DNA from: Prillingera fragicola
Taxonomy: Eukaryota; Basidiomycota; Tremellomycetes; Trichosporonales; Trichosporonaceae
Direction of reading: 5' to 3'
Assembly: GCA_002335605.1 (NCBI GenBank)
Contig: BEDY01000003.1
Coordinates: forward strand, 1,488,001-1,552,000
DNA: 64,000 bases
A program made the translations under genes and the position numbers. The number at the start of each line of letters is the position of its first letter. Positions within the stretch are counted from its first letter, which is position 1. Below, one piece after another: positions 32,841 through 40,096 of this stretch. A model generated the notes under the pieces. That model searched no databases. It had not been told where the DNA came from and worked only from the letters and a program-made list of their open reading frames with translations.

Positions 32841-35586
32841 CTACGCCGCCACCCTGCGCTGCGCTCCCAGGCCCTGGTTGAAGCCTCCCCTTCCGCGACC
32901 ACCGCCCCTACCGCGGTAACTGCCGCGGGCTCCACCTCTCCTCTCTTGGCGTCCACGGCCACCATCTGCCGCTCCGCCATCGCGCGCCTGGCCGCGCTCG
33001 GCACCCTGACCCTGGCCGAGCTTGACGTCCAAAGTCTTCTCGTTCTGCTCGACCATCGAAACGGCACGCTCAGCGAGCTGCTGGGCGAGACGCTGGACCT
33101 CGGTCTGCTCCACACGGTGGAAGACGACGACCTGGTCAATCTGGTCGAGCGAGGCAGCAAGCTCGTCAGTGTAGATCATGCGGGAGATGATCGACGTGAC
33201 AGTCTGCTGGGGAAGCGAGAAGGTGGTGGCGAGGTGGGCAAGCGACAGCGAGGCGTAGTAGGGGGCGTAGGTAAACAGGTACGTGCGAAGACCCTCCTCC
33301 TGGATCTTGCGAGCGAGCATAGTGCGGACGTCCTCGACGTTGTCGAGGAGCTGCCAGATTTTGATCGAGAGGATCAGGTCACGAGCACGCTCCCACTCGC
33401 CGGCCTGGAGAGCCTTTGCGGCCTTGATAATGTGGTCGCGAGTGTTCTCGGGGGGACCCATGAAAGCCTGCTTGTCGGCGAGGTCGAGGAGACGCTTGAA
33501 CGACTTGGAGGCAATGCGGCGGCGCTGGTCCTCGGTATCAACCGATGCCAGCAAGGGAATCTCAACGAGCATGCACGAAGTGAGGTAGGCAGCCTCGAGC
33601 AGCTCAATGTTGAGGTGCATGTGGAAGGGAAGAAGACGACGCTTCTCAATGAGCTCCTGCTCGGGGGAGAGCTGGAGGTTGTAGCGCTGGACAGCCTGGG
33701 CGAGGAGCTCCTTCTGACGCTGGGTCTGGAACATCTCGGACAGAATGGTCTGGCACTCGTGGATGAAACCACCACGGAACGCAGCGAGACCGAGCTGAAC
33801 AAGGGCACGGTTGTACATGATCTGGGTGGCAACGTCGGCGTGCTGAATCGTGTCCTGGAGGTGCGACATCAGGAGCAGGTCGCGGGCCTGGTGGTAACGG
33901 GCGTGGGTCGCGTGGTTGAAGATGTGGGCAAGGATGGCACGGGCACGGAGGAGGGGAGCGTCCGAGTGGTAAATGTGGACACAGAGAAGGTGGATGAGGC
34001 GCGAGGCATCACGCTTCTCTCCGATGGGGGTGATGGCCGAGTTAAGGTGGGTGATGGCCTTGGTGACAGCAGCCTCAAAGTGGTCGACAATCGAGTCGGG
34101 CTTGGCGTAGACGTGCTCGAGACGGCGCATGACCGCACGAGTAGTCTGGTCGGCCCATTGCTCACGCTCAAAGAGAATCTGAGCCTTGGTGATGGCGACG
34201 TAGAGAGGAGTCTCTTCGCGGAGGCGCTCAATGTACTCGGTGCCACGCTCGTGCGCGTCCGTGTGCTGGAGAGTCTTGGTAAACTCGTTGTCAAGGTTCT
34301 CAAGCAGGCTGATCACGTTGCCGGCAACCTCGACGCGCTTGCCGTCCTCGGGCGCGCGCTCGGCCATGGTGTCGTAGTCCTCGACAGTGTCCTTGACACA
34401 GTAGTCAGGGTTCTCACCCAAGATGGTAATAAGCTGGTCAAACTCCTTGAGGCACTGGACCCACGAGTCGTGAGGAATCGAGGCAAGGTTCTGCGAGTAG
34501 TCGAGACGGGCTGGGATGAGGGCAAGGAGGACACGGATGCGCTGGTAGATGGTCTCCGAGACCTCGAGCAGCTTCTGGAGGATACGGATAGTCTCGGCAC
34601 GGTCCGTGTTCTTACGACCACGCTGCTCAAAGATCTCGTGCAGGGTCTTGAAGACACCGTCGGCGGTAAGGTTGAGCTGGCGGCCACCACGGCCAATCGT
34701 AGTAAACTCCTGGTCCTCGCCCTCCTGGCCCTCGGTGGCAGCTTTCTTAACCTTGACGACCTTGGGAGGAGCGTTGGCAACGTTGTACGCCTCGGTGTAT
34801 GCCTCGGGGTCCTTCTCGTAGTCGGCAAGGACAACCTCAAATTCGACCTTCTTCTTCTTCAAGATCTGACGCATCGAGTTGACGGCCTTGCTCTTGTTGG
34901 CCGCCATCTTCTTCGAAGCAGACTTCTCCGACTTGATAGTCTCGTTGATCGCCGCGTCAAGCTCAGTGATGGCCTGGAGGAAGGCGGGGGGAGTGTGGCC
35001 GGCTGGGGGAATAGGGGACGAGATCATGGCCAGCTGGTGACGCTGGATGAATCGAAGAAGCTTGTCGAGCTCGTTGGACGCGGCAACCCAGTCGTTGGCC
35101 GCACCACCGGCCTTGGTTGCGTTCTGCAGACTGTTGATGGCAGCCTCCATCTCGGCGAAGCTGGGACAATGTCAGCATGTGCGCTTTGGCCCTCCTTCGA
35201 CGCGTCGCCATTGACACCCACCGCTTGTCCTTGGCACTCAACACGCGGATCTTGTCCTCCTCGTCAGACTCCTCATCCGAAGACACATCGCGCAAGAACT
35301 GGTTCGCCCTCTACAGCCTTGGTTAGCATTTAAACTTGTCTGCCCTTGCCACCGCCGTACGCACTCCATGTCCAGCGTCCGAGTCGTCGTCACTCATCTC
35401 CTCCTCCTCGTCTGAGCTGTCGTCCGAGTCATCGTCGCTGCTGCCACTGTCGGAGCGAAGGAACTTGTTGGCAAGACCCTTCTTCTGAGGCTTCTCATCC
35501 TCGGACGACGAGCCAGAGCGGAGAGACTCGTCAGAGTCCGAGTCGCTGTCCGAGCTGTCGCTGCCGAGTTTGGCAAAGAAAGACAT
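32841..35586 (-). CDS. NIP1: Translation initiation factor eIF3 subunit c
   Basis: Scaffold subunit of eIF3 that bridges eIF1, eIF5 and the 40S ribosome. Exons 35586-35365, 35310-35222 and 35160-32841 give 876 aa. The start [15 protein letters not shown] and the Ser/Asp/Glu-rich first 90 residues match the family. Then [39 protein letters not shown], and the helical solenoid ending in a PCI domain (about residues 620-800, including [19 protein letters not shown] and [14 protein letters not shown]). The C terminus is an RGG-rich tail ([14 protein letters not shown]). Both introns sit within the acidic N-terminal segment. Confidence 0.92.
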
Positions 35587-36442: not shown

Positions 36443-36614
36443 ATGCCCAACTTTTACGGACCTTGCTCAGGAAGCTCAACTGGCACCAACCGGAACTGTA
36501 CGTTGATTCTAGTTCTCCCGCTCATTGACAGTGCCCTGCGATCCGTGGGTTCGTCCAGACGGCTACACCTTCTGTGGTTACTGTCTGGCCGCGATCGGCT
36601 ACGGCAGCCGTTAG
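36443..36614 (+). CDS. Tiny four-cysteine protein, family member 1
   Basis: Two exons, 36443-36497 and 36532-36614, with a 34-nt GTACGT...GACAG intron, encode 45 aa. The protein has Cys8, Cys21, Cys33 and Cys36, i.e. C-x12-C-x11-C-x2-C, with the box TGTNRN directly before the intron and PCDP directly after it; the last pair is FCGYC. The same spacing and intron site recur in three further genes up to 39590. Four cysteines with a terminal CxxC suggest a small zinc ribbon or knuckle, but no known family was recognised. No signal peptide is visible, so a cytosolic or nuclear protein is more likely than a secreted one. Function unknown. Confidence 0.55.
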
Positions 36615-37177
36615 GCAGGCAACAGCGCTTAACCTCATTGCAACCATTGTTGGAGCTGTATACGCCACTCTGTGTTACAAGACAGCAACGTACAAATTTC
36701 TCGAACGGCCAGCGCCGCGTGCGGACGTACCTCGTGGTGCAGCGGATTGCTATCTGATCCCAACCTCTACAAATGACATGCATAAGTTGGTAATGACAAG
36801 TCCATCGTGCCGAGAGCGTTTCCACTGTCTGTGGCTTGGTGGCGGCGCCGGCCTGCCTGGTTCGAGCCAATGGTGCCCACTCCAGTAACAGCACACACTG
36901 ATCAATTTGGACGCCTCGTGGCCCCGTTGCCTGTGCTAGTGCGAAGCCGAAGCAGTCCGAACATGGCGGCCTCGAGCTGGGACCTTGTTTGCCCATTCAT
37001 GGCGTTAAGCGGGCAGGTGTGTGCACCGACCCATCGTTGGTGCGAGGTGACAGTGTACGTACACCAGGACAGCTGCACCTAGTGCTTAAGACGACGATGC
37101 AGCGCCTCAGCCCCGTGTAGCTCAAACTCGCATCTAATACTGGCTTCAACGCAAAGACTCTGCCACTCATCCGGACC
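36615..37177. other. Intergenic between four-cysteine genes 1 and 2
   Basis: No gene supported. Minus-strand frame 36454-36996 (180 aa) overlaps the member 1 gene in antisense and has Cys residues but no pattern like the family. Confidence 0.4.
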
Positions 37178-37398
37178 ATGTCGTTCTCAGCCCTCCCAGT
37201 CGAATACTGGAACTGCATAGGCGGGTACAACGGTACAAATCGCGGCCGTAAGTGATCGTGCAAGTGGGATGCCGAATCAATGGACTGACTGTGCGCGGGC
37301 GTGCAGAGTATTGCTACCCCTTTTATCACTCTTCCAGCGGAGTGATTTGGTGTGCTTTCTGCGGAAAGACCCTGCCTCCACCAGGAAGATATGTGTAG
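37178..37398 (+). CDS. Tiny four-cysteine protein, family member 2
   Basis: Exons 37178-37247 and 37307-37398, intron GTAAGT...GTGCAG of 59 nt with branch-like GGACTGAC, encode 53 aa. Cysteines at 13, 26, 39 and 42 give C-x12-C-x12-C-x2-C. The box NGTNRGQ spans the intron (the Gln codon is split C|AG), followed by YCYP and VIWCAFCGKTLPPP. Neither exon is a long frame by itself, so ordinary gene finders would miss it. The match to members 1, 3 and 4 in cysteine spacing and intron site is the evidence; there is no transcript support. Confidence 0.58.
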
Positions 37399-38473
37399 TC
37401 TTTGAAAGAGCCGTTTGCACTGCCGAGTCTCTGGGTTTCGCTTAATGCATACATTGATGCCGGCTATGTGTCAACTCCTTTGATTCTTTGGCTATTACAC
37501 ACGTGGTGTGCCGTTTTACGATGCTCTGGCCGCTGGATACTGGCTACTGCACATTGATGTCACTCTACACACTGTACCGGCTCTTTGCACAACGAGATCG
37601 GCCATCGAGTGTGACGCCAAATACCCAGCTATTCACAGACCTCAACTAGCACGGACATATACACGAATGTTTATGCTTGGGTTAGTGGTCCGAGATGTGG
37701 CTTGGAGCCGAAAGAAATGTCGAAGTGTCGCTAGAGATCTGTGCCAAGGTCTTGAAAAGTCCTTGGTCGTGAAGAGACTTCCGGTTGTTGTTGAGTCAGT
37801 TGTCGCTGGACGGAAGTGACAACGCGGCAATCAATATTGCAAGTAAACCTCAGAATCTAATTGCTTAACAGACCTGCACCACAGACCTAGACACGAAGTC
37901 TCGTTTCTATTTCAAAGGGACGTGCATCCAAAAGGATGTGAATCAAACCGCAGACGATCTGAAAACTCACCGAAAATGGAAGAAGCTATTCGTGTGCCAT
38001 TCCTTCCCCCACTGCTCGCACTGATCGCCCTTCCAACTTTGTCCTGTGACTCCTCCAATGCAAACCCCATTTCGATCTTCCTAGGGTGGTTCTGAACTAT
38101 GACCCGAGCTCGAAATCTCCTCAGTTGTGCTGTGGGCGCCAGTTATGTACCGTACAAAGGTTGTCCCAATACTAACAACTGCATCTTGAGTCTCTCACAG
38201 GACAGGTGTGCTCGTCACAATCCCAGCATTCGCCACTACGGTACACACGATACACATCTCGTCTGAACCCACTAGCTCTGACTCACACACACCAAAAGAT
38301 ACACACAAACTAGCCGACGCCGATAGCACGTCTAACCGAGCGAGCTGCCCCTCCTCTGACTCGTCCTCACCTCGCACTACGCCCCTTGACTCGAAGACAG
38401 CCAACATTAAATGCGTTGGGGATTCCATGTCTCTTGTCTTACAACATGACCCAGAACTGACAAAAAATCGAAA
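37399..38473. other. Intergenic, no gene seen
   Basis: 1.07 kb, AT-richer than average. A 103-codon frame at 37508 shows no domain and no family pattern. Nothing else supported. Confidence 0.4.
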
Positions 38474-38694
38474 ATGAACTACACGAACGCCGGACAGGGG
38501 CGAACCCGCGCTCGCCTTCTTCCGTACACCCACTACGGGTTCTGCCTTGGCAACATTATGGGACACAACAGGAATCTTGAGTGGAACTGGAACTATTGCA
38601 GTGCGCTGATAGCATAGAGCCCTGCACAGGAAGACGTCTCGGTGATGGCACTTGGGCTTGTATCTTTTGCGGAATCAGGCTGCACCGTTTCTGA
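38474..38694 (+). CDS. Tiny four-cysteine protein, family member 3
   Basis: Proposed exons 38474-38580 and 38613-38694 with a 32-nt intron (GTGGAA...GATAG) give 62 aa. Cysteines at 24, 40, 52 and 55: C-x15-C-x11-C-x2-C. The box GHNRNL precedes the intron, and EPC, then WACIFCGIRL follow it. This member is the most diverged: the first spacing is 3 longer, the intron is phase 2 rather than phase 1, and the donor GTGGAA is weak. A different acceptor at 38617 would break the frame. The gene could be decaying or spliced slightly differently. Confidence 0.45.
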
Positions 38695-39381
38695 ATCGTG
38701 ATTCGCAGCACGACAGCGACACGACGAACCGCCTCCGTGGAGAGTGAAATAATCAAACAGTCTATCTTATGCAGGGCTAGTACATCAGGCGGCTACAGAG
38801 CTTGTGTCAGTCTAAATCACTCTTTCTCGTATAGGCATGCCTTATCTCCAAGTTCATGGTGGAACTTGTCAGTTTCCAGGATGAAAATTCATCGTCTCGC
38901 AATTGCTGTATCGTAGTGAATGATCACGCTGATTCAGTTCTTGCAGTGAGAACTTCTTGTCCGTCAGGAGGGGCTGTAGGGAAAGTGATGTCCCCAAAAG
39001 TGATCTCTGGGCCATCACGATACACGTCACCTCAGGTCTCGCACCCTGCCTGTCACTCAAATCAGTTCTTCGCCTCAACTCATCCCCTGGTCCTCGCATG
39101 AATCTTCTACCCTGGAACCACCTTGATCACATACTGCCGGCGAACTTTACACCACCGTGCTCCACAGACTTCACAATCCACTCAACGGAGTGGATTGAAA
39201 GCGATTGTTTGCAGACACCAGGGCAAGATCATGATCTCGTACCGAGTGGTCTCTGACACCACTTGCACATACATAACATACCTCCAGACGCGATCCAATG
39301 GTGACTATCAAGCAATACCCCTCTCCTCGTCTCTACCACTCCCCCGCTGCATCATCGCCATTTCAAAAGTGATCGAATAAA
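38695..39381. other. Intergenic upstream of four-cysteine member 4
   Basis: No gene supported. The last 80 bp before 39382 are CT-rich (CTCTCCTCGTCTCTACC), which would fit a fungal core promoter. Confidence 0.4.
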
Positions 39382-39590
39382 ATGGCCTGCGCTTCATACA
39401 ACAGTGACGGCCGTCCCCCCATCTGCTACGGCGACCTCGGTGGCTGGAACCGCGGTCGTGAGTTTCGCGTTCTCCCATCACACGCTGACGGTACCCAGAA
39501 TACTGTGCGCCGAATTATAGACGCGAGTTCTGGATTCCTGGATGGCAGTGCAAATGGTGCCACATTATCGTTCCCTATGCTCTTCAGTAA
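39382..39590 (+). CDS. Tiny four-cysteine protein, family member 4
   Basis: Exons 39382-39457 and 39499-39590 with a 41-nt intron (GTGAGT...CGCTGACGGTACCCAG, a textbook branch and acceptor) give 55 aa. Cysteines at 15, 28, 43 and 46: C-x12-C-x14-C-x2-C, plus an extra Cys3. The sequence CYGDLGGWNRGQYCAP spans the intron in exactly the place used by member 2 (Gln codon split C|AA), and the end is WQCKWCHIIVPYALQ. The GGxN-x-NRGQYCxP core shared with member 2 despite otherwise different sequence argues for an old duplication under selection. Confidence 0.6.
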
Positions 39591-39994: not shown

Positions 39995-40096
39995 GCTCTC
40001 GTGGTGTAGTGGTTATCATACTCTCTTAGGGTCTAGTTGATTCTAAGCTTCCAGCTGGTATGGGAGTGGGCCCCGGTTCGAATCCGGGCGAGGGCC
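39995..40096 (+). tRNA. tRNA-Pro(AGG) with intron
   Basis: Acceptor stem GCTCTCG (39995-40001) pairs with CGAGGGC (40089-40095), with one G-U pair; discriminator C at 40096. D arm GTG/CAT around TAGTGGTTAT, anticodon stem CTCTC (40021-40025) with GGGAG (40062-40066), loop TTAGGGT with anticodon AGG (40028-40030), T arm CCCGG-TTCGAAT-CCGGG (40072-40088). A 29-nt intron (40032-40060) sits after position 37, the standard place. Confidence 0.9.

Follow-up and report, generated by a model that had tools for sequence, protein, structure and literature searches.

The 64-kb stretch of DNA analyzed here, hereafter the window (C3:1488001-1552000 of a 20.2-Mb genome in 17 contigs), carries four tiny split genes, g1 to g4, which belong to a multigene family, in the sense of several homologous loci with a common gene structure. 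Computation places homologous members in three clusters, with the intron at one phase-1 position and, in tandem pairs, nonsynonymous divergence (dN) below synonymous divergence (dS). We hold it somewhat probable that this is a real, spliced, coding multigene family whose products form an intracellular, zinc-stabilized mini-domain, and which has spread by tandem duplication while its loops vary. An earlier sequence-only reading of the window had proposed a local expansion of a small protein; the tandem family stands, but the local frame proved too narrow, as 26 candidates lie in three clusters on contigs C3, C4, and C11.

The four exon pairs proposed in that reading join into uninterrupted spliced frames (Table 1, with protein lengths) across GT..AG introns of 34, 59, 32, and 41 nt in g1, g2, g3, and g4, respectively. 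The genes g1, g2, and g4 have one ATG each, located below an in-frame stop. An intron site common to all four genes had also been claimed, and this holds for g1, g2, and g4; in g3, GT is missing from the start of the family site, and the junction drawn at 38580/38613 uses a GT four bases past it, together with an acceptor that overlaps the branch-like sequence CTGAT. We therefore regard the g3 splice as doubtful. The shifted junction is also the source of the C-x(12-15)-C range given earlier for the first cysteine pair: read to the family intron site, g3 agrees with g1, g2, and g4 in a C-x12-C spacing. Thus, g1, g2, and g4 look real as drawn, and g3 is homologous and possibly a degenerating copy. 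DNA repeats among the four genes amount to only short imperfect pairs of 16 to 23 nt, which indicates that there was no recent duplication.

The strict exon-1 motif C-x-G-x3-G-x-N-R-[GN], which was picked after the genes had been seen, has four matches on the two strands of the window, one at each of g1 to g4, and a single match in 60 windows simulated by a first-order Markov model and likewise searched on both strands. The full spliced motif, consisting of a relaxed exon 1 spliced on to C and C-x2-C downstream, occurs three times in the window (g1, g2, and g4) and in none of 150 simulated windows. The loose exon-1 part alone, C-x7-N-R-[GN], provides no evidence, since its 7 matches in the window compare with 137 in the 150 simulated windows.

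Relatives of the window genes were found elsewhere in the genome. Spliced g2, compared with the whole genome, recovered its own two exons and a match at C4:1832547-1832639 (E 2.1e-5), which lies inside an unspliced frame, the intronless C4 member of Table 1. This member reflects either intron loss (perhaps as a retrocopy) or the state preceding intron gain; it has a proline-rich head and a basic, lysine-rich tail and adjoins a cytochrome P450 frame. A consensus of 39 aa, built from the first five members, matched a second intronless member at C11:60097-60180 with E 0.077, which is the fair figure, since the E of 2.6e-7 from a later consensus is circular, that consensus having been written after the member was known. 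An exon 1 of the family type lies close beside this match, and the second intronless member stands head to head with the intron-bearing member C11:61272 (plus strand). One spliced C11 protein matched itself and the C4 member (E 0.022). As whole-genome protein queries, g1, g3, g4, the C4 protein, and the C4 core returned only their own loci. The last consensus query recovered the two intronless members and nothing else; further clusters may thus have escaped it, such as those lacking an intronless copy. The DNA pattern AAYMGNGGNCAGTAYTGY, searched with 2 mismatches, was uninformative (100 matches vs. 132 for its control), and a simpler scan of eight 3-kb loci picked by this pattern (24 kb) yielded no clear member, the best score being 11.8 bits.

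A splice-aware scan covered 264 kb (~1.3% of the genome), comprising the window and 200 kb around three seed places. Splicing was simulated in all phases for each GT..AG stretch of 28 to 100 nt (28 to 130 nt in a wider run). The resulting peptides and those of unspliced frames, once past a loose cysteine filter, were scored against a nine-member profile, with the same DNA read backwards as control. In the first run, the reversed control reached a maximum of 14.0 bits, and 14 loci outside the training set, g3 included, scored above it; the join fell in phase 1 for 13 of these 14 although all phases were allowed, the g3 join being in phase 2. The wider run, with four iterations and control maxima of 14.6 to 18.4 bits, added C4:1817668 (a member with a longer intron), C4:1835704, and C11:62323. 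Because the iterated profile drifted, scores of the wider run are not independent evidence. At least two of the loci that it brought in have no core; the two dropped by hand, which lie below the first-run control, are near 1868930 on the minus strand of C4 (43.4 bits, phase 0) and near 1486100 on the minus strand of C3 (31.0 bits). Hand sorting left 4 candidates on C3, 10 on C4, and 12 on C11, two or three of which are weak; the start of C11:62984 is uncertain. The alignment used below contains 23 members, with g3, C11:62984, and C11:84124 left out.

The introns of these candidates carry signals that the scan did not select for, as it required GT and AG alone. The intron set also numbers 23: it excludes g3 and the two intronless members but takes in C11:62984 and C11:84124. 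Every one of these introns interrupts, in phase 1, the codon exactly two residues ahead of the second cysteine. The background for the signals consisted of 40,000 random GT..AG stretches taken from the same DNA. A GTRNG donor is present in 21 of the 23, vs. 15.1% of the background; 21 also have CTRAY close to the 3' end, vs. 4.8%; and the two occur together in 19, vs. 0.81%. Based on this enrichment of unselected signals and on the single intron position, the introns look genuine and are believable. CTRAY-type branch sites and short introns are described for Cryptococcus neoformans, with a median intron of 55 nt and CTRAYR in 39.66% (PMC2483917), a comparison that assumes a related fungus.

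The consensus core of the family is C-x-G-x3-G-x-N-x-G|x-x-C-x(8-15)-C-x2-C. With the nearest ATG as start, 21 of the 23 aligned proteins are 34 to 66 aa long, and the others reach 96 and 106 aa. Given as upper estimates, the first three cysteines and the Asn are invariant in all 23 members; the fourth cysteine, which completes the C-x2-C pair, is kept in 22, the first Gly in 22, and the second Gly in 20, while Arg follows the Asn in 11 and Pro follows the second cysteine in 13. At least 17 members have 12 residues between the first and second cysteines, and the remaining members have 11 or 13. Members on one contig share a mean core identity of 0.31 and members on different contigs one of 0.29; the branches of the tree are poorly supported save for some tandem pairs (0.98 for C11:84986/85541 and 0.94 for C4:1816867/1817668). 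From the low identity both within and between contigs and the confinement of tree support to tandem pairs, the family looks old, growing locally and spread over contigs.

Codon positions 1, 2, and 3 of 20 genes have GC contents of 49, 54, and 65%, and both codons are in use for Cys (61 and 27) and for Asn (46 and 11), counted over all such residues of the genes. Five close neighbor pairs have dN values of 0.39 to 0.63, with dS at 1.44, 1.60, and 2.27 in three pairs and saturated in two; the three pairs with measurable dS give dN/dS of ~0.26-0.39, based on short protein-guided alignments with dS near saturation. A ratio near 1 between copies, which the sequence-only reading had named as evidence against such a family, was thus not seen in these three pairs; all five come from outside the window, whose own copies are more diverged. 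When the nearest ATG is taken as start, none of the 23 proteins has a 19-residue stretch above hydropathy 1.36, and hence none has a clear hydrophobic leader or membrane segment by this hydropathy scan, which is not a signal-peptide predictor. A few upstream 6- to 8-mers are enriched in 20 genes (ATACATA, for example, in 4 genes), uncorrected for the number tried.

Several observations weigh against a real family of intracellular, zinc-stabilized proteins. In addition to the short alignments and near-saturated dS behind the dN/dS values, the conservation counts are inflated in that a profile rewarding cysteines partly selected the members. The binomial p of ~2e-36 for the joint occurrence of both intron signals assumes independent introns, and these introns are relatives; moreover, CTRAY is absent from the g1 intron and from one other. 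Of 20 start sites, 13 have an A at position -3, and the starts are uncertain in that 9 of the 23 spliced candidates contain two or more ATGs in frame. Among the weaker candidates, C11:84124 scored 14.8 bits in the first run, only just above control, fell outside the top 60 of the wider run, and is without the C-x12-C spacing, and C11:62323, at 18.9 bits vs. a control of 16.2 in the wider run, reached 12.6 bits in the first run, below control. The drifted profile of the wider run placed 36 to 52 peptides above control, including several alternative readings per gene, and gave high scores to the two loci without a core. Last, the longest reading of C4:1815440 (C4:1815584-1815206, minus strand; 114 aa) has a strongly hydrophobic, leader-like start, which is missing from its shorter readings and from the longer starts of other members; on account of this reading, our confidence was lowered slightly.

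Judging from the sequence, the products most likely form a compact intracellular scaffold of ~40 residues around a single zinc ion bound by the four cysteines. A turn around the invariant Asn and the Gly residues may shape the mini-domain, and the variable N-terminus and the loop between the second and third cysteines could contact a nucleic-acid or protein partner. Copies would arise by tandem duplication, spread to several contigs, and diverge fast, and some would decay, as g3 (without donor) and C4:1835704 (without the fourth cysteine) may illustrate.

The core was compared with established families. In zinc ribbons, one zinc is shared by a pair of knuckles, each C-x2-C or of similarly close spacing. 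The likeness to a zinc ribbon put forward earlier is only partly borne out: the third and fourth cysteines form one C-x2-C knuckle near the C-terminus, as in ribosomal protein eL43/L37a (E 0.53), whereas the first pair is C-x(11-13)-C in all 23 members, with G-x3-G-x-N-x-G between. Zinc ribbon membership was rejected, as the two-knuckle spacing is absent and no profile match is significant (best E 0.53 and 0.22 in PDB profile searches). Ribosomal S27e was rejected for g2 at 12.8 bits vs. an NCBIfam cut-off of 70. In Pfam, 5 families were matched at E <= 1, each by a single member of the 23, and the strongest match was to C1_1 (E 0.0063); this C1 domain (PF00130) weakly matches residues 27-50 of g4 and was rejected at 16.8 bits vs. 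a gathering score of 26.5, in a single member of the 23. UPF0547 (PF10571) also matched one of the 23, at a nonsignificant E of 0.059. RanBP2-type zinc fingers are small four-cysteine domains in which two close cysteine pairs flank an Asn, with conserved aromatics. The present family resembles them in its small size, its four cysteines, and its conserved Asn and aromatic residues but differs in cysteine spacing, and the assignment was rejected, this finger not being among the 5 Pfam families. Lineage-specific tandem families of small fungal proteins, such as effectors and orphans, occur in clusters, diverge fast, have short products, and include decaying copies; the family described here is alike in all these respects and differs in having no clear signal peptide (nearest ATG) and in the conserved placement of its intron within the cysteine core.

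Searches of the protein database returned no match at E <= 1 for four members, none at E <= 10 for the C4 protein read from an upstream in-frame codon (113 aa), and none at E <= 10 for the 23 members (1491 candidates), in a database from which spliced genes such as these may be absent and whose fungal coverage is not established. The peptide string NRGQYC had no match in full-text literature, and no published description of the family was among the matches listed for the Trichosporonales/Tremellomycetes and small-protein literature, where one may still exist. Hortaea and Trichosporon have the most species-specific gene groups according to PMC12204505, whose consulted passages do not mention zinc.

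Other explanations must be set against the zinc-stabilized mini-domain. One, which we consider unlikely, is that these are metal-buffering or redox peptides whose cysteines store metal or act as thiols while the remainder drifts. Their small size, conserved cysteines, and little other conservation would agree with this; on the other hand, each core has four cysteines, and the two Gly and the Asn are nearly as constant, which points to a folded domain more than to a buffer dense in cysteines. Quite unlikely as well is that they are extracellular disulfide-bonded peptides that leave the cell along an unconventional pathway, by a leader read from an upstream ATG, or through an extra first exon that escaped recognition. 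Small, cysteine-containing, fast-diverging tandem families are often secreted, and the hydrophobic start of the longest C4:1815440 reading is in keeping with export; however, the hydropathy scan found no clear leader in any of the 23 proteins, the single ATG of g1, g2, and g4 lies below a stop, and the other longer starts among the nine multi-ATG members have no comparable stretch. That the loci are non-coding transcripts or decaying relics, with splice sites kept by recency alone, appears very unlikely: g3 without the shared donor and C4:1835704 without its fourth cysteine could be read in this way, yet the members are too diverged to be recent (mean core identity ~0.30), and most of the 26 candidates have kept their frames, cysteines, and splice signals. 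An arrangement of short frames and consensus-like sites that arose by chance is extremely improbable and was rejected: short frames with GT..AG joins are abundant, as the loose exon-1 matches attest, and the iterated profile drew in non-members, but the full motif is absent from simulated windows, g2 has an independent genome match, the reversed-sequence control was exceeded, branch sites appeared without having been selected, and all 23 introns of the set have one position.

A bolder version of the zinc-held family, to which we give a rather small chance, is a hidden hypervariable repertoire, in which dozens of tiny intron-split genes would present swapped loops on one metal-held scaffold as an intracellular recognition set of this yeast lineage. 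Such a set might act against transposons, viruses, or non-self nuclei, or its members might behave as drive-like elements. Short split genes are easily missed by gene finders and hard to reach by unspliced searches, and this family of about two dozen emerged only once splicing was built into the scan. The core motif together with the fixed phase-1 intron provides a concrete signature for finding such families in other genomes, and the diverging paralogues offer a set for asking what a cysteine scaffold of ~40 residues does.

Table 1. Coordinates of family members and neighboring features (positions with no contig prefix are those of the window)
Feature	Position	Strand	Remarks
g1 exon 1, ATG to phase-1 donor	36443..36497	+	donor GTACGT; A at -3 of ATG
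g1 exon 2, to stop	36532..36614	+	spliced protein 45 aa
g2 exon 1	37178..37247	+	donor GTAAGT; branch site CTGAC at -22
g2 exon 2	37307..37398	+	spliced protein 53 aa
g3 exon 1, as drawn in the earlier reading	38474..38580	+	family motif reaches 38576; no GT at family donor site
g3 exon 2, as drawn in the earlier reading	38613..38694	+	doubtful junction; spliced protein 62 aa
g4 exon 1	39382..39457	+	donor GTGAGT; branch site CTGAC at -14
g4 exon 2	39499..39590	+	spliced protein 55 aa
Intronless C4 member	C4:1832439-1832729	+	96 aa from ATG; same core
Member with fourth Cys replaced by Arg	C4:1835704-1835893	+	possible decaying copy
Second intronless member	C11:60219-60082	-	45 aa
eIF3 subunit c frame	32844-35171	-	Pfam eIF-3c_N, E 1.5e-135, plus PCI
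tRNA gene match	39995-40096	+	Rfam RF00005, 41.6 bits

In the window, the cluster has the eIF3 subunit c frame as its left neighbor, and a tRNA gene match follows just after g4. ARAGORN with bacterial settings listed no tRNA at this place; the Rfam match is longer than usual and probably contains an insert.

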